From positions 1 through 20,206 of IMG/VR virus record IMGVR_UViG_3300034980_000114: 20,206 bases of DNA; one strand, 5' to 3'. Made by a program: the position numbers and the translations under genes. Of the stretch, positions 1 to 6,817 are shown piece by piece. The notes beneath the pieces are model-generated. The model had not been told where the DNA came from. It saw nothing but the letters and a program-made list of their open reading frames with translations, and searched no databases. Position 1 is the first letter of the stretch, and each line of letters opens with the position of its first letter. This stretch comes from a virus.

Positions 1-567
1 ACGTTTAATGTGGCGGCGGTACCGGATTTAATGCGTCAGGTGTTGCGAACGGAAGTGGAGCGGATGATGCCGGTGGTGTATCACGGGCTGTGTTTTGCCC
101 GATGCTCGACGGCCACGGTGGATACGGGCGCACGGATTCATTCGGATCACGGGATGGGAGCGACACATGCGTGGGTCTGGTATAGCCAGGACCCCCCGGA
201 AGACCCGGACCCCACGGGTGGGACGTTGCATGGCACGGCGTTTTTTACACACAAGGTGTTAGGGGAGCGGTTTCAGGGTACGACGGAGGAGCATGAGCGA
301 ATACTGGTGGAGGAGTCGATGGACGAGTCGCGCTGGACGGTGCGTCAGATAGCGCCGATGAAGCGGAATCGTCTGGTGGTGTATCCGGCGGATTTATTTC
401 ATAGCCGGTATCCCCATGACGGGTGGGGCGCGTCTGCGCGGAATGGGCGTGTGGTCGTGGTCGGGTTTTGTGTGGCGTCGGATCATCCTGATGCGGCGTA
501 TTTTCAGCCCGGAGCAATGCTGGAGAGTGCGGCGAATGGCAAAGAAATGGATTCAGGGCGCAATTAA
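1..567 (+). CDS. 2OG-Fe(II) oxygenase-like protein (DUF6445-like), 5' partial
   Basis: The frame is open from base 1 with no stop upstream of the GTG at 10, so the N-terminus most likely lies outside the window. Counting that GTG as residue 1, there is an H-x-D pair (H44, D46, in RIHSDH) and a distal His followed by Arg (H131, R133, in FHSRYP) in a strand-rich context, which is the metal-ligand layout of 2-oxoglutarate/Fe(II) dioxygenases of the DUF6445/prolyl-hydroxylase-like type. The phrase RNRLVVYP just before the distal His is typical of that group as I remember it. Such enzymes hydroxylate proteins or small molecules; the substrate here is unknown. The gene overlaps the next one by 32 bases and lies just upstream of terminase. 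Family assignment is by motif recognition only. Confidence 0.7.
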   Translation, partial: TFNVAAVPDLMRQVLRTEVERMMPVVYHGLCFARCSTATVDTGARIHSDHGMGATHAWVWYSQDPPEDPDPTGGTLHGTAFFTHKVLGERFQGTTEEHERILVEESMDESRWTVRQIAPMKRNRLVVYPADLFHSRYPHDGWGASARNGRVVVVGFCVASDHPDAAYFQPGAMLESAANGKEMDSGRN

Positions 568-715
568 GAAGCCCGGAGCGTTACGGAAGAGCCTTGGCGT
601 GAAGGCGGGACAGACGATTCCCGCGAAGACGCTGACTCGGGCGGCGAAGGCTGGCGGGAAACTGGGGCAACGGGCACGGCTGGCGAAGACGCTGAAGAAG
701 ATGTCGAAGGGCTGA
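536..715 (+). CDS. Small basic phage protein (59 aa), unknown function
   Basis: This short Lys/Arg/Ala-rich protein begins MAKKWIQGAIKKPGALRK and contains GQTIPAKTL and GGKLGQRARLAKTLK. Small proteins of this pattern recur beside terminase or capsid genes in podoviruses and siphoviruses and have no established function. The high positive charge suggests nucleic-acid contact, which is inference. I chose the ATG at 536, inside the end of the upstream oxygenase gene, because the family-like sequence starts there and a GGAGAG-like ribosome site precedes it. The open frame also extends upstream to 416, but that part only shadows the oxygenase gene. One base separates its stop from the terminase start. 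Confidence 0.75.
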   Translation: MAKKWIQGAIKKPGALRKSLGVKAGQTIPAKTLTRAAKAGGKLGQRARLAKTLKKMSKG

Positions 716-716
716 C

Positions 717-1496
717 ATGGTTGGGGAGAAGATGACGGTGGCAGACGAAGAGGCGATGGATGCCACACTCGCGGCGATTGCCGAGACCCGCAAGACGCGA
801 CAGACAGGTCGATTTGAGCGGTATTTTCCTGACTGCACGGACGGCTGTGACCCGGACTCCCCGGATGTGATGGATCATACGGGGATGTGTCGCGTGTTGT
901 ACCGGAAGCATGTGGCCTTTTTTAATAGCCATAACCGGGAACGCCTGATGATTGCCGCGAACCGCATTGGCAAGACACAGGCCGGAGCGTATGAGACGGT
1001 CGCGCACCTGACGGGCCTGTATCCCCACTGGTGGGAGGGGCGGAAGTTTGAGACGCCGGTCTCGTTTTGGGCCGCAGGAGATACGGCGAAGACGGTGCGG
1101 GACATTGGGCAACTGGAACTCTTGGGGCCAATGAATAATATTGGCTCAGGCTTTATTCCGCGCCATCTCATTGAGCATTTTTCACGGAAACCGGGGGTGA
1201 CGGATGCCGTGGAGACGATTTGGGTCAAGCACGCTGAAAAAGAACACGGCGCACCGGGACTGTCTGAGTTGGGACTCAAGAGCTACGACCAGCGGCGAGA
1301 AAGTTTTCAGGGCACAAAAAAGCACGGCATCTGGCTGGATGAAGAACCGCCGGAGGACATTCATGTGGAGTGTCTCCTTCGCACGGCACAGACCCCGGAC
1401 TTTACCGGAGGAATGTTAATGCTGACGTTTACGCCACTTCAGGGATTGACGCCATTGGTGTTGGAGTTTTTACCTGGAGGACGGTTGCCGACGTGA
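717..1496 (+). CDS. terL: Large terminase, ATPase half (N-terminal fragment)
   Basis: This is the ATP-driven DNA-packaging motor domain of a P22/T7-type large terminase, which works at the portal vertex. Visible motifs are a variant Walker A (AANRIGKT, with K86 and T87), Walker B with the catalytic acid (WLDEEP, D208 and E209) and the coupling motif TFTPLQG (residues 237-243). The reading frame stops at residue 259, just after LEFLPGGRLPT, which in intact homologues is the linker to the nuclease domain. The nuclease half is a separate gene at 2352-3095; together the two give 506 residues, the usual size of a whole TerL. Start at 717 follows the upstream stop by one base with GAAGGG ahead; an ATG at 732 is possible. 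Confidence 0.93.
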   Translation: MVGEKMTVADEEAMDATLAAIAETRKTRQTGRFERYFPDCTDGCDPDSPDVMDHTGMCRVLYRKHVAFFNSHNRERLMIAANRIGKTQAGAYETVAHLTGLYPHWWEGRKFETPVSFWAAGDTAKTVRDIGQLELLGPMNNIGSGFIPRHLIEHFSRKPGVTDAVETIWVKHAEKEHGAPGLSELGLKSYDQRRESFQGTKKHGIWLDEEPPEDIHVECLLRTAQTPDFTGGMLMLTFTPLQGLTPLVLEFLPGGRLPT

Positions 1497-1939
1497 GTGG
1501 GGGGGGATTTTTTGCCTCGGGCGAACTCGATCCACACCCATATCGCGCTGCCATGATTACACGTCTGTCGGTGGCGGTGCTGGAACGGGCGATTCGTGAT
1601 GCTCAACTCGTGGAAGTGGGGCATCGTGTAAAGGTGTGTCCGATAAAAGCGTGGCCGGATCGAGAGCAGCGATCTTTACTGACAGCACGAGGATGGTTAC
1701 GTGATGCGGCGAATCCAATGTTACGATTATGGTTAAGCGGAGCCGGAGTCGGGGTTGAGCAGTTTGTTACAAGTATTGCGAAGCGTGTGGTCTGGACGGA
1801 GCAGTTGGAAGCGCGTGCCAGACAGCATATGGGGCCACCACGTCGACATCCGCGATGGCCGTCCTCGTCGTGGCCGTTTCGTCGGGCTGGGGATGAACAA
1901 CGAAAAACACAGGAGGAAGCATGGGATTTGTCGCAATAG
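1493..1939 (+). CDS. Hypothetical phage protein inside the split terminase region (148 aa)
   Basis: I do not recognise this gene firmly. The GTG at 1493 overlaps the TGA of the terminase ATPase half (GTGA), with GGAGG twelve bases upstream. A second start, ATG at 1553, would give 128 residues and is safer if the run of eight G at 1499-1506 is miscounted. The central part (LSVAVLERAIRDA, then ARGWLRD and LWLSGAGV) is reminiscent of small phage proteins with a helical pattern of the kind A-x-x-W-I-x-D followed by a short helical domain, often encoded near replication or packaging genes. The C-terminal 40 residues are rich in Arg, Pro and Trp. It overlaps the next gene by 19 bases. Function unknown. 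Confidence 0.65.
   Translation: MSGGGFFASGELDPHPYRAAMITRLSVAVLERAIRDAQLVEVGHRVKVCPIKAWPDREQRSLLTARGWLRDAANPMLRLWLSGAGVGVEQFVTSIAKRVVWTEQLEARARQHMGPPRRHPRWPSSSWPFRRAGDEQRKTQEEAWDLSQ
1499..1513 (+). repeat. Homopolymer runs G8-A-T6
   Basis: Eight G, one A and six T follow each other just after the stop codon of the terminase ATPase half and the GTG start of the next gene. The G run codes for Gly-Gly and part of a third Gly in that gene. Length errors here would change the frame of the GTG start but not the terminase stop, which lies upstream. Confidence 0.9.
1911..1917 (+). promoter_or_regulatory. Strong ribosome binding site for the 84-aa gene
   Basis: AGGAGGA sits four to five bases ahead of the ATG at 1921, inside the end of the preceding gene. 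It fixes that start and argues that the small gene is translated in its own right. Confidence 0.75.
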
Positions 1940-2175
1940 GACTAAAGTTGTTGCCGTATATTGTGTCTGCGGTGGAAGCTGTTGAGCGCCTCATCAGAAC
2001 AAAGGGTGAGGAAAAGGAAAATGCCGCTGTAGGGATGGTGCATGCCATTCTGCAAACGGTGGAGGCTGGAACAGACCGTGACCTCTTGAACGACGAGGAC
2101 GTGAATCGGGCCACGAGGGACGTAATGAGAGCGGTCGTGTCGCTCCAGAATGTGATTAAGAGCAAGAGTGTGTGA
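1921..2175 (+). CDS. Small conserved-looking phage protein (84 aa), unknown function
   Basis: The protein starts with a moderately hydrophobic helix (FVAIGLKLLPYIVSAVEAV) and continues as an amphipathic helical protein ending TRDVMRAVVSLQNVIKSK. Small proteins with this look (hydrophobic start, LNDEDV-like turn, VVSLQNVI end) occur near packaging genes of related phages as far as I recall, without known function. A holin is unlikely because only one weak hydrophobic stretch is present. The AGGAGG at 1911 gives a confident start. It is the second gene of the cassette that separates the two terminase halves; its TGA overlaps the GTG of the next gene by four bases. Confidence 0.75.
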   Translation: MGFVAIGLKLLPYIVSAVEAVERLIRTKGEEKENAAVGMVHAILQTVEAGTDRDLLNDEDVNRATRDVMRAVVSLQNVIKSKSV

Positions 2176-2342
2176 AGAAACATATTCGGCTTGGGATTCG
2201 CCACGCACAAAAGATACAGCGCATTGGGAAATGTCCTATCTGTCGCGGCACCAGTCGTAAATCAAACGGTGACTGGTGTGGTGCGTGTGGCATCACGGGG
2301 CGGTATGATGCGTATGCGAAGCGCAAACTCCAGAAGGATTAA
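2172..2342 (+). CDS. Zinc-ribbon microprotein (56 aa)
   Basis: A GTG at 2172 (GTGA overlap with the preceding stop) opens a frame of 56 residues ending at TAA 2340-2342. It carries two knuckles, CPIC at residues 21-24 and CGAC at 36-39, twelve residues apart from C24 to C36 with a Gly/Ser/Lys-rich loop, which is the pattern of a small treble-clef or zinc-ribbon fold. Both ends are strongly basic (start KKHIRLGIRHAQK, end YAKRKLQKD), consistent with nucleic-acid binding. It is the last gene of the cassette between the terminase halves and ends nine bases before the nuclease half begins. Role unknown. The paired cysteines, the overlap coupling and the absence of room for anything else support a real gene. 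Confidence 0.7.
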   Translation: MKKHIRLGIRHAQKIQRIGKCPICRGTSRKSNGDWCGACGITGRYDAYAKRKLQKD

Positions 2343-2351
2343 CTAGCAATT

Positions 2352-3095
2352 ATGTCCAAGTTTGTCGTGATGGCCGATTGGGACGATGTTCCGCACCTGA
2401 GTGAGGTGGAGAAGGCGGAACTCCTTGCGTCGATTCCGCCCCACCAGCGTGACGCCAGAACAAAAGGGGTGCCGCAGTTAGGGTCCGGGGCGATTTTCCC
2501 AGTGCCGGAGACGGACATTACCATTGCCGATTTTGATCTTCCCGCGCATTATGCGCGAGGGTATGGGTTGGATGTGGGGTGGAATTGCACAGCGGCGGTC
2601 TGGCTGGCGCATGATCGAGAAACGAACGTCCGGTATATCTATGCCATTCATAAGCGCGGCGAGGCTGAGCCGTCGATTCACGCGGATGCAGTGCGGTCGC
2701 GTGGCGTGTGGATACCGGGGAGAATTGATCCCGCCTCGCGTGGGCGCAGTCAGCGAGACGGGACGGCGTTGATTGATGACTATGTCGACCAAGGACTCTT
2801 TTTGGACGTGGCTCCCAATGCTGTTGAGGCGGGAATTCTTGATGTCTGGCGGCTGCTGAGTACGGGGCAACTGAAGGTGTTTCAGTCCTGTCACGCATGG
2901 TTGGAAGAATTTCGTCTCTATCGTCGTGATCGAAAAGGGCGTATTGTCAAACAGAACGACCATCTCATGGATGCGACACGGTATGCGATTGTGTCGGGCG
3001 TGGAGTGGATGACCGTGGAGCCTGACACGCAGCAGCAGGTGCCGCTTATTCGTCACTTTGATGTCGGGAGTGACACCTTGGGGTGGATGCACTAA
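2352..3095 (+). CDS. terL: Large terminase, nuclease half (C-terminal fragment)
   Basis: This is the RNase H-like nuclease domain that cuts concatemeric DNA during headful packaging. It starts MSKFVVMADWDDVPHL, which in intact terminases directly follows the ATPase domain linker. Catalytic acidic residues are visible at D74 (GLDVGW), D126 (RIDPAS) and D203/D207 (NDHLMDATRY). An in-frame TAA lies twelve bases upstream at 2340, so this half cannot be translated as a continuation; a weak AGAAGGA site lies at 2332-2338, thirteen bases ahead. All key residues of both halves are present, so the terminase may work as two polypeptides. The stop overlaps the next start by one base (TAATG). Confidence 0.9.
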   Translation: MSKFVVMADWDDVPHLSEVEKAELLASIPPHQRDARTKGVPQLGSGAIFPVPETDITIADFDLPAHYARGYGLDVGWNCTAAVWLAHDRETNVRYIYAIHKRGEAEPSIHADAVRSRGVWIPGRIDPASRGRSQRDGTALIDDYVDQGLFLDVAPNAVEAGILDVWRLLSTGQLKVFQSCHAWLEEFRLYRRDRKGRIVKQNDHLMDATRYAIVSGVEWMTVEPDTQQQVPLIRHFDVGSDTLGWMH

Positions 3096-3343
3096 TGGGA
3101 AAACCCGAAGACGTTATTTTAGATAAGGCGCAATTTCTTCAGATGGCCGTGACCTCCTTACTTCAGCAGATTGACGCCGCGACGTTACATACGATTGTGG
3201 CAACAGGCCGTGATGAGTTTGAGCGCGTGGCTAGAGTTTCGTGGGTGGGTCATGGATTTACGGGCGATGACTATCGTCAGGCGTTTCAAATGTTGCAAAA
3301 CCGAGCAGCGCAGGTGCCGGGAGGACAGATAGATGCCCATTGA
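3095..3343 (+). CDS. Small helical phage protein between terminase and portal (82 aa)
   Basis: I do not recognise a named family. The protein is helical and neutral to acidic, with AQFLQMAVTSLLQQID and DDYRQAFQMLQNRAAQ as the clearest helices. Its place between the large terminase and the portal is shared with many small phage proteins of unknown role. The ATG at 3095 overlaps the terminase stop by one base and has GGGGTGGA seven bases upstream; an in-frame GTG at 3083 would add four residues but lies within the terminase end. The gene overlaps the portal start by 11 bases, so the three are probably translationally coupled. Confidence 0.75.
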   Translation: MGKPEDVILDKAQFLQMAVTSLLQQIDAATLHTIVATGRDEFERVARVSWVGHGFTGDDYRQAFQMLQNRAAQVPGGQIDAH

Positions 3344-5705
3344 TGATCCAACAGGTGCAGGGTATCAGGTCGTCGTTGTCGAAGAGGATGGGGAAGTTAT
3401 TGACGGTGACTCCCTGCTACAGACGGCGCGAGATGAATTTCTTCGTCTCGCGCATACGCGCTTCCATACGATTGTGGATGCCGAGTCGGAACTTCGGAAA
3501 AACATGCTGGAGGACTTAGAGTTTCGCGCATCAGAGCAGTGGCCTGAGAATGTCAGAACAATGCGAAACCAGGACAGTCGTCCATGTTTGACGGTAAATC
3601 GCATTCCGCAGTTTGTGCGTCAGGTTACGAATAATCAACGGGCCTCACGTCCGGCGATTGCGGTGAATCCCACAGGCGATACGTCAGACCCTGATGTAGC
3701 TGAAGTTATACAGGGAGTTGTGCGTCATATTGAAAACAAATCGGACGCGGATGTGGCCTATAGCACTGCTGGCGATCATCAAGCGACGATGGGCCGTGGC
3801 TACATTCGGGTGATTACGGATTATGTTGACGACGATCCTCTTGATCTAAATCAGGAAGTGCGGATTGAGCGGGTGGGGAATCCGTTTTCGGTCTACATGG
3901 ACCCGTCCGCACAAAAGCCTGACGGATCTGATGCGCGGTATGCCTTTGTTGTAGAAGATATTCCAAAGGATGAATATAAATTCAAGTATCCCAATTCTGA
4001 ACTTGTTGACCTGTCAGAGTTTACGTCATCGGGAAATCAACAGGCCGAGTGGATGCCTGAAGGCAGCGTGCGTATTGCGGAGTATTTTTATGTCGAGGAG
4101 ACGAGAGAGCAGGTCATTATTCTCTTAATGCCTGACGGGACAAAACAAAAGGTGCCACGCGAGGCTTATCGTGACGTCGATCAATTGCCTGACGGAATTA
4201 CGTTGCTGGCAGAGCGTGAGGTAACACATCGTTCCGTGAAGTGGGCCTTGATTAACGGGGCTGAAATACTGGAGGGCGATGAGTTGAAGACAGGTGGCGT
4301 GTCGTGGCCCGGAAAATACATTCCACTTATCCCGGTGCTTGGGGATGAAATTAACATCAATGGCGTGAAGGATTATCGGGGCATTGTGCGTGACGCAAAA
4401 GATCCACAGCGCATGTATAACTACTGGGTGAGCGCGGAGACCGAGATGATTGCACTGGCTCCGCGTGCGCCGTTTGTGGCAGCAGAAGGACAGTTTGAAG
4501 GGCATGAAGCAAAATGGGAATCAGCGAACGTCAGAAACTTTCCCTATCTGGAATATAAGCCGAAAACATTTAGTGGACAGCTTGCGCCCCCGCCGCAACG
4601 CCAGAGTTGGGAGCCACCGATTCAGGCGATGACGATGGCGATTGCTCAGAGCGACAACGATCTCAAGTCGACGGGCGGATTCAACGATGCGTCTCTTGGC
4701 GTGCGTGGGCCACAGGAATCGGGGAAGGCGCTTCGCACGCGCCAGCAGCAGGACGAGATGGCAAACTCGCACTACCTTGATAATCTTGGCCGAGCGATTC
4801 GTCAGGTCGGTCGAATTGTTGTGGATCTCATGCCGCACATTTATGACGTGGCGCGTGTGATGCGAATTACTGGTGACGACGAGCGGCGTCGAAACGTGAT
4901 GGTCTTCGCCGGAGAAGAGAATGCGCCATCAGATGTTGACATGCAACAGATTCCACCTGGCATTGAAGGTATTTACAACCTTGGTGTTGGGCGTTATGAC
5001 GTTAGTGTGTCGGTGGGGCCAAGTTTCCAGACTCGTCGACAGGAAGCGGTGGATTCGCTGGTGCAGTTTGTCCAAGCCTATCCCAATGCGTTCCCGATGA
5101 TTGGAGATTTACTGGCGGAGAACATGGATTGGCCGGGAGCAAAACAGGTGGCGGCTCGACTGAAAAAGATGTTACCGCCGGAGTTGCAGGATGATGTGAA
5201 TCCGCAGGACATTCCACCAGAGGTTCAGGCGCGGATGCAGCAGATTGAAGGACAGTTGCAACAGATACAGGAAGCCTATGAACAGGCGCAAGAAGCGTTG
5301 CGAACGGATCAGGTGAAGCGTCAAGCGCAGGTGGCGATTAAGGAGCGTGAACTCGCGGCTGATGCGGCGGCTCAGGAACGTGACCTGCAAGGCAAATTGC
5401 AACTGGAGGAGATTCGTCAACAGGGGGAAAGTTCTCGTGCGTTGGCGAAGATTGAACAGCAACGAGCCAGCGAGATTCTTCAGACGGAAATTGGTCGACT
5501 GGAACAACTCATTGCGAGAAATGTGGACGTGTCAAATCGGCAGGAAGATCGATATGAGCGCATGATGATTGAGGGAATACAGGCGGGATCTGTGCCGCCG
5601 CAAGGTGCGCCACCGGCTGCGCCGTCTCCCGGTCAGGGTGCGCCACCGCTTCCGCCCGGAGGTCCACCAATGGCCGCTCCTCCTCTCCCGCCAGAAGATA
5701 TTTAG
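3333..5705 (+). CDS. P22-type portal protein (790 aa)
   Basis: The portal is the dodecameric ring at one capsid vertex through which DNA enters and leaves. Length, the N-terminal NRIPQFVRQVTNNQRASRP stretch (about residues 89-107), and the following VNPTGD and GRGYIRV blocks match the P22 gp1 portal family. Residues of about 620-745 form a long Gln/Glu/Arg-rich coiled coil (for example QQIEGQLQQIQEAYEQA), comparable with the barrel helix of P22. The last 40 residues are very rich in Pro, Ala and Gly. GGAGG at 3320-3324 precedes the ATG by eight bases. It lies directly between terminase and scaffold, as expected for a packaging and head operon. Confidence 0.93.
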   Translation: MPIDDPTGAGYQVVVVEEDGEVIDGDSLLQTARDEFLRLAHTRFHTIVDAESELRKNMLEDLEFRASEQWPENVRTMRNQDSRPCLTVNRIPQFVRQVTNNQRASRPAIAVNPTGDTSDPDVAEVIQGVVRHIENKSDADVAYSTAGDHQATMGRGYIRVITDYVDDDPLDLNQEVRIERVGNPFSVYMDPSAQKPDGSDARYAFVVEDIPKDEYKFKYPNSELVDLSEFTSSGNQQAEWMPEGSVRIAEYFYVEETREQVIILLMPDGTKQKVPREAYRDVDQLPDGITLLAEREVTHRSVKWALINGAEILEGDELKTGGVSWPGKYIPLIPVLGDEININGVKDYRGIVRDAKDPQRMYNYWVSAETEMIALAPRAPFVAAEGQFEGHEAKWESANVRNFPYLEYKPKTFSGQLAPPPQRQSWEPPIQAMTMAIAQSDNDLKSTGGFNDASLGVRGPQESGKALRTRQQQDEMANSHYLDNLGRAIRQVGRIVVDLMPHIYDVARVMRITGDDERRRNVMVFAGEENAPSDVDMQQIPPGIEGIYNLGVGRYDVSVSVGPSFQTRRQEAVDSLVQFVQAYPNAFPMIGDLLAENMDWPGAKQVAARLKKMLPPELQDDVNPQDIPPEVQARMQQIEGQLQQIQEAYEQAQEALRTDQVKRQAQVAIKERELAADAAAQERDLQGKLQLEEIRQQGESSRALAKIEQQRASEILQTEIGRLEQLIARNVDVSNRQEDRYERMMIEGIQAGSVPPQGAPPAAPSPGQGAPPLPPGGPPMAAPPLPPEDI

Positions 5706-5752
5706 CGTTGAGGGAATTTTTCTGGCAGACTATGTGAAAGGATTTTGATGCA

Positions 5753-6817
5753 ATGACCGTAACCATCGCCAGTACGACGGACACCGAAGAGCAAGTGGCC
5801 GAATTAAATACTGCTGCCAATGAAGAGACCCCTGTGGGTGATCTCTCATCTCAGCAAGCAGGTGGCGTGCCAAATGATAGCGAGACATCGGATGAGTCTG
5901 GCGAGACGGACGTTGTGGCAGCGGAATCTGACGAGGCGTCGTCTGAGGAAGTATCTGACGACGCAAGTGAATCGAATGAACCGGTAGAGGCGTCATCTGA
6001 CGAGGGTGACGCTGAGTCCGCTGATGAGCCAAAGCGGAAACGCCGTCGACGTGGTCGTTCTTATCGTGACCGCGCTAGTCAATTAGCGCGAGAGAAAGCG
6101 GCTGAACAGGCGCGTGCGGACAGGTTAGAAAATGAAATACGGACGCTTCGCGCTCAACGGGCGCAGCGCCCTGTTGCGGAGACTGATCAAGGAACCTCAG
6201 ACAATGAAGCACAGCCAGAGGTTCAGGCGGCGGAATCGGCTCCGGCCCCAAAGGATGGGAAGCCTGATCAGGATAAGTTTGAGACCTATGAGGAATATGC
6301 AGAAGCGTTGATGGACTGGAAAGTCGATCAACGTATGGTTGCACAGGAATCTGAGCATCGTGTTCGCATCGAGCAGGATCAAGCTCAGAAGGCCCACGAA
6401 TCGAGTGTCGCTACTCTTCACGAGCGAATCGACACGTTTCGAGAGGCAAACCCGGACTTCGATGCCGTTATTGAGAAGGGAAAAGACCTTCCGATGACAC
6501 GACCGATGCAAGACTCGGTGCTTAATTCAGACCTCGGACCAGCGTTGATGTATCACCTCTCTAGGAATCCTGAAGAGTGTGACCGCATTTCACAGTTGCA
6601 TCCGATGGCGGCAATTAAGGAAATGGGAAAACTTGAAGCGCGGCTAGAGGATGTTTCTACAGGCCCGTCCTCGTCGACGCATTCTGTCACGAAAGCACCT
6701 AAGCCCATTAAGCCTGTTGGGGGCGGTGCGACTGCATCAACGACACGGCTGGACGACCTGCCATATCAGGAGTTCAAGAGACAGCGGGAGATTCAGCTTG
6801 GTATCCGAGAGCGATAA
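5753..6817 (+). CDS. Scaffolding protein (354 aa)
   Basis: Position between portal and coat, and composition, identify a procapsid scaffold, which directs coat assembly and leaves before packaging. Residues 1-92 are highly acidic and Ser/Glu/Asp-rich. A sharp basic patch (KRKRRRRGRSYRDR) follows near residue 94, then a coiled coil to about residue 145. A helical middle contains FETYEEYAEALMDWKVDQ. The last residues, DDLPYQEFKRQREIQLG, resemble the C-terminal coat-binding motif found at the end of many phage scaffolds. AAAGGA lies about ten bases ahead of the ATG. No protease domain is visible. Confidence 0.88.
   Translation: MTVTIASTTDTEEQVAELNTAANEETPVGDLSSQQAGGVPNDSETSDESGETDVVAAESDEASSEEVSDDASESNEPVEASSDEGDAESADEPKRKRRRRGRSYRDRASQLAREKAAEQARADRLENEIRTLRAQRAQRPVAETDQGTSDNEAQPEVQAAESAPAPKDGKPDQDKFETYEEYAEALMDWKVDQRMVAQESEHRVRIEQDQAQKAHESSVATLHERIDTFREANPDFDAVIEKGKDLPMTRPMQDSVLNSDLGPALMYHLSRNPEECDRISQLHPMAAIKEMGKLEARLEDVSTGPSSSTHSVTKAPKPIKPVGGGATASTTRLDDLPYQEFKRQREIQLGIRER

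Follow-up and report, generated by a model that had tools for sequence, protein, structure and literature searches.

A large terminase gene split in two near the predicted boundary of ASCE core and lid, with changing inserts, in a family of uncultured phages

The window, meaning the whole stretch of DNA that was analysed, is a 20,206-base virus contig with no end repeats, and carries the two parts of a large terminase (TerL) gene as separate open reading frames on its plus strand, 717-1496 (259 aa) and 2352-3095 (247 aa), as a preliminary description of the sequence had claimed. The first frame, TerL-N, ends in a TGA stop codon (1494-1496) and was assigned to the ASCE ATPase core from Pfam Terminase_6N (45 bits, cut-off 22, a match typical of a TerL ASCE ATPase), phrog_31467, dN/dS and conservation in its clade; phrog_31467 is its best PHROG (E 6e-56) and is labelled unknown function. 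Walker A (AANRIGKT, 954-977), Walker B (IWLDEE, 1329-1346) and the coupling motif (TFTPLQG, 1425-1445) all lie within it. The second frame, TerL-C, comprises the lid subdomain and hinge (residues 1-45, 2352-2486), mapped with the Terminase_6N profile and a model of the fused relative L042, and an RNase H-like nuclease domain (2487-3095) with acidic residues at 2571-2573, 2727-2729, 2958-2960 and 2970-2972, assigned from dN/dS, from Pfam Terminase_6C (50.8 bits, cut-off 22.6, as for a TerL nuclease) and from the match of P22 gp2 nuclease 4dkw with a profile of fused relatives (E 2.6e-38). The Terminase_6N profile itself is divided between the frames, with positions 2-150 in TerL-N and 162-212 at the start of TerL-C. 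Both frames are in the same phase, with the TGA and 855 bases between them. The window terminase is a split form of the Terminase_6-type TerL family, in which ATPase and nuclease, characteristically joined in one TerL polypeptide, occupy separate frames in the window and in 16/16 close relatives. Downstream, the start of a gene for 82 aa (3095-3343, plus strand) shares one base with the TerL-C stop, and this gene is followed by the portal protein gene (3333-5705, plus strand, 790-aa ORF), which is 70-89% identical and in the same place in close relatives, and at the position of which the fused relatives have their annotated portal.

The 855 nt between the halves had been described as three overlapping genes with ribosome sites of their own, and three overlapping, coupled plus-strand ORFs were indeed found (GTG1493-1939, ATG1921-2175, GTG2172-2342), with clear Shine-Dalgarno sites for genes 1 and 2 (-9.3 and -10.3 kcal/mol) and none for gene 3 (-2.6). 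The site of the TerL-C gene is moderate (-5.5 kcal/mol), and 7/16 nuclease starts fall within the best 10% of background. Gene 1 (148 aa), the start of which overlaps the TerL-N stop (GTGA), has homologues in the same place in four relatives (L003, L004, L005, L013; dN/dS 0.30-0.36). Gene 2 (84 aa; dN/dS 0.02-0.22) was assigned as lysis-cassette associated from its homologues and their neighbours: it has homologues in most clade inserts, and upstream of TerL-N in L019, and in other phages it lies next to a likely M15-type endolysin (by eye) and a membrane protein (L111), or a holin homologue (L112). Gene 3 (56 aa), which overlaps the gene 2 stop with its start, is zinc-finger-like (CxxC...CxxC, the zinc-finger match being weak and below cut-off), with homologues in L011 and L110. 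Pfam and PHROG profile searches gave no endonuclease family for the insert genes of the window; a pattern search of IMG/VR for genes 1 and 3 confirmed no relatives, their homologues being those seen in the fetched loci. A tract of ~205 bp (2148-2356, plus strand), ending at the TerL-C start codon, is common to the window and L011 at about 93% identity. Between the two, dS is 0.10 within gene 3 and 1.5-2.2 in both TerL halves and gene 2, which indicates a recent exchange at the junction.

The two frames are complementary. Walker A, Walker B, the coupling motif and the nuclease acidic residues, which had been called intact, are so in the window and conserved throughout the close clade, in which one position of Walker B varies conservatively. 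The sizes, said to add up to a normal TerL, sum to 506 aa (259+247), compared with 496 aa for the fused relative L042. Alignment with fused relatives bore out that the start of TerL-C continues the end of TerL-N with no conserved residue missing, and the alignment gap coincides with the stretch that varies most (about 2-30 aa), which lies between FLPGG... and KFVVMA.WDD. Purifying selection on both halves is strong (dN/dS 0.08-0.11 for TerL-N, 0.06-0.07 for TerL-C). Structure prediction of TerL-N alone gave a pLDDT of 38. TerL-N also contains ~14 extra residues at 40-58 (window 834-890), with invariant Cys40, Cys44, His54 and Cys58, present throughout the close clade and absent from fused relatives; a zinc site formed by these four residues is possible.

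The position of the cut was revised. It had been placed exactly at the domain linker, and instead lies ~45-50 residues earlier, by alignment where the ASCE core meets the lid, within the ATPase domain. On the AlphaFold model of L042 (pLDDT 86), the cut maps to approximately residues 245-253, in the stretch that separates helix 236-241 from strand 255-260. Model residues 41-302 are matched by solved ATPase domains of P74-26 TerL, and the match to the P22 nuclease starts at ~298. The order in D6E TerL is ASCE core, lid, linker (230-241) and nuclease (PMC5727402), and profile position 262 aligns with D6E residue 199. Judged from these alignments, the cut falls about at the core-lid boundary and leaves the ATPase-nuclease hinge intact. 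This position matters because the hinge is essential in T4, where its removal, leaving ATPase and nuclease domains separate, abolished translocation (PMC9958956), and because the natural split spares it. The T4 result counts against a two-chain motor, though there the domains were separated at the hinge and the window TerL is cut elsewhere, between core and lid.

Relatives with the same split, a search that the preliminary description had proposed, were collected with the nuclease half (79 loci), and a search with the ATPase half added no close-clade member. The close clade shows 75-91% identity, and both halves are held by the window and 16 relatives, among which L003/L004 and L012/L014 are near-copy pairs. 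All of these contigs (17/17) are split at the same place. Insert length ranges from 132 to 1472 nt, and insert content differs between members: besides the gene 1 homologues in L003, L004, L005 and L013, a holin-like membrane gene (57-67 aa) stands alone in L010 and L019, and a holin-type gene (phrog_9752) with gene 2 is found in L006, L007, L009, L016 and L040. Two members also contain a PD-(D/E)XK-like gene of 189-197 aa (L006 2906-3475; L040 2961-3554), recognised by eye from the motif VDVKTKER and with no clear family match. The passenger genes that could be classified are largely lysis genes (holin-type), and their position is mobile.

Outside the close clade, splits at the same position were found in L027/L028, L031, L045, L051, L054/L055, L057/L059, L068, L080, L087, L091, L093 and L105, and five of these loci (L055, L059, L068, L091, L093) have no insert, with stop and start overlapping or nearly adjoining (ATGA in four). 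L091 and L093 lie in named cultured bacterial genomes (Sphingomonas and Phenylobacterium deserti), and L091 has a portal-like gene downstream. The genome of L091, Sphingomonas melonis AS2.3 (G011), contains a further Terminase_6N frame, uninterrupted, on a different contig, and additional relatives of L091 sought in its bacterial family were distant ones only. In L055 (3030-3160), the stretch shared by the two TerL frames contains six consecutive G. It is conceivable that insert-less splits with overlapping frames, such as L055, give a frameshift product. L031 has four genes (3824-5906, 2.1 kb) between the TerL halves, including one 329-aa gene with no PHROG matches. The best TerL tree needs seven changes of split state, and many independent origins of the split are not claimed, since a single split clade was not rejected by the AU test (p 0.21).

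How the split arose was weighed on these branches. The preliminary description had it made by gene insertion, and a specific form of this is that a homing endonuclease gene split an intact terL and has since disappeared or given way to the present genes. Several observations are in keeping with such an origin: L051 has an HNH endonuclease gene (phrog_953, E 1.2e-61) in its junction; the short gap ORF of L087 (3137-3274, GenBank MW202785) resembles by eye the end of an AP2-domain homing endonuclease (with no Pfam match); endonuclease genes are often found near terminase genes (PMC10448857); and nrdA offers a precedent, as cited in PMC3322345. However, the L051 gene lies exactly between the ATPase stop and the nuclease start, and both flanks are conserved in the insert-less L055, stop and start overlap neatly as ATGA in four of the insert-less splits, and no endonuclease family was matched in the inserts of the window. 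Together with the differing inserts of the close clade, this does not bear out insertion as the cause. An origin by endonuclease insertion is rated unlikely, though still to be reckoned with. Because insert-less splits exist at the same position, and because the L051 endonuclease sits between a stop and a start that are both conserved without it, fission first, followed by insertion, is the likelier order, and the cassette is probably not what divided the gene.

A rival reading concerns whether one chain or two is made. The 855 bases could be part of a self-splicing intron of unrecognised type with genes nested in it, the spliced RNA encoding a single-chain TerL, as happens in ICP1 and Jug phages. 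Introns are known to occur in terL (PMC10448857, PMC12363816, PMC11878797), joining the halves costs no conserved residue, and the HNH endonuclease of L051 lies at the same site. A covariance search for group I/II introns, as had been suggested, was performed with Rfam in gathering mode and found neither these nor other RNA in the window and 24 split relatives; E-value mode over window 1400-2450 gave chance matches only. The same search finds the group I intron in phage SIOphi, used as a positive control, and may miss degenerate introns. Against an intron, these 25 split sequences have no Rfam match, the inserts have neither sequence, length nor structure in common, insert genes overlap the halves at start and stop in the style of an ordinary operon, and splits without any insert exist. 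In L010 (132 nt, the shortest) and L019 (159 nt), one coding ORF fills the gap, overlapping the ATPase gene and continuing into the nuclease gene, so there is no room for an intron core in these two. Splicing of this kind is accordingly given only a slight chance.

Other ways of joining the halves were considered. In 14/15 contigs tested, the nuclease frame reaches back only 0-87 nt beyond its start before it closes, so a frameshift cannot join the halves in those contigs. Programmed frameshifting or readthrough in the window was rejected, as the TerL-C frame opens 9 nt before its start, which is 846 nt after the TerL-N stop. A split intein was likewise rejected: TerL-N ends 8 residues past the start of FLPGG, TerL-C begins MSKFVVM, and only terminase domains are present. 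In L019 (2168-2330), a single in-frame TAA lies between the TerL halves, the nuclease frame is open back to this TAA, and the holin-like gene is read in a different frame from it; joining of the L019 halves by readthrough is formally possible.

Decay of the split TerL to a pseudogene, with another ATPase performing packaging, would fit an interrupted gene and is very improbable, given purifying selection on both halves, catalytic residues conserved in all members, an intact portal gene downstream, and no other terminase in ten clade contigs (up to 58 kb), in which no second Terminase_6N match was found. That the cassette is an assembly chimera, a natural suspicion for a metagenome contig, can be set aside as next to impossible, as L003, L004 and L005 repeat the first junction and L011 repeats the second. 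These are independent contigs with four metagenome numbers.

A split that runs through the whole clade, has no detectable intron and is not a chimera supports the natural two-polypeptide terminase that had been proposed, and the simplest reading, by a wide margin, is that two products are translated. The phages of this clade thus quite probably build their TerL from two polypeptides, an ASCE core and a lid-hinge-nuclease chain, that associate as a motor, with the insert genes as passengers. TerL-N would supply the ASCE ATPase core, and TerL-C the lid, hinge and RNase H-like nuclease, with the lid-hinge-nuclease connection kept within one chain. The two would bind each other non-covalently at the core-lid contact and would probably assemble into the usual ring motor on the portal, where the lid of the other chain would complete each ATPase site. 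Both TerL genes belong to one tightly coupled operon, in which small genes would have settled in a pre-existing stop/start junction, with turnover between lineages and fission preceding insertion. Chain association, motor function and the order of fission and insertion are the parts that we infer. A broader proposition is offered more tentatively, at somewhat less than even chances: that a working motor is formed from separate ASCE-core and lid-nuclease chains, the covalent core-lid link being dispensable for translocation, that fission arose several times, and that the linker is a hot spot for fission as well as a safe place for lysis and endonuclease genes to settle.

Conservation of the split in an uncultured phage family suggests that the motor may work without a covalent link between the ATPase core and its DNA-moving and DNA-cutting part. 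The natural core-lid cut would provide a ready-made two-component system, in which the halves of many natural pairs could be combined, titrated and exchanged. Automatic annotation may leave the ATPase half as 'unknown function', as for phrog_31467, such that these phages seem to be without a proper TerL.

Compared with known systems, the window shares motifs and domain order with P22-type large terminase (Terminase_6N/6C; gp2 nuclease 4dkw), as well as the fold of the fused relatives, and differs in being two polypeptides, cut between ASCE core and lid. terL interrupted by introns has been described in ICP1 (PMC10448857), Jug phages (PMC12363816) and Bastillevirinae (PMC11878797). There, too, the coding sequence is interrupted by other DNA, but splicing restores one chain, whereas here no intron was found and some relatives have no room for one. 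Another likeness is nrdA ribonucleotide reductase, split by a homing endonuclease gene with no splicing (Friedrich et al. 2007, cited by PMC3322345 and described in PMC10448857), also an essential phage enzyme in two peptides. Of the three marks of such genes in pieces, assembly of the fragments into an active enzyme has indirect support from purifying selection on both halves, complementary coding fragments without splicing appear to be present in the window, as far as splicing can be judged from sequence, and a homing endonuclease between the fragments is absent from the window and present in L051. The window differs from nrdA in the enzyme, in having lysis-type and other genes and no endonuclease in the gap, and in that insert-less splits are known. 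GenBank MW202785 (Podoviridae sp. ct2G2228, the source of L087) has two adjacent CDS, each annotated 'large terminase protein', split at the same site with a 134-nt gap; it belongs to a different tree branch from the window, has a gap ORF that resembles an endonuclease remnant, and no published discussion of its split was found. terL introns, unspliced split nrdA and the adjacent TerL CDS of MW202785 are thus already known. No report of a two-chain TerL that lacks an intron and is conserved across a clade, of a cut at the core-lid boundary, or of lysis genes nested in such a TerL was found in a literature search that covered few subscription journals.

Upstream of the terminase, a gene for a small basic protein of 59 aa lies just 5' of TerL-N (window 536-715). 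It is preceded by a partial gene (window 1-567), which resembles by eye a 2-oxoglutarate/iron oxygenase and has homologues in L003, L004, L005, L013 and L017 (42-73%). Also by eye, the close relative L003 has a small terminase gene upstream of its TerL halves (1664-2287).
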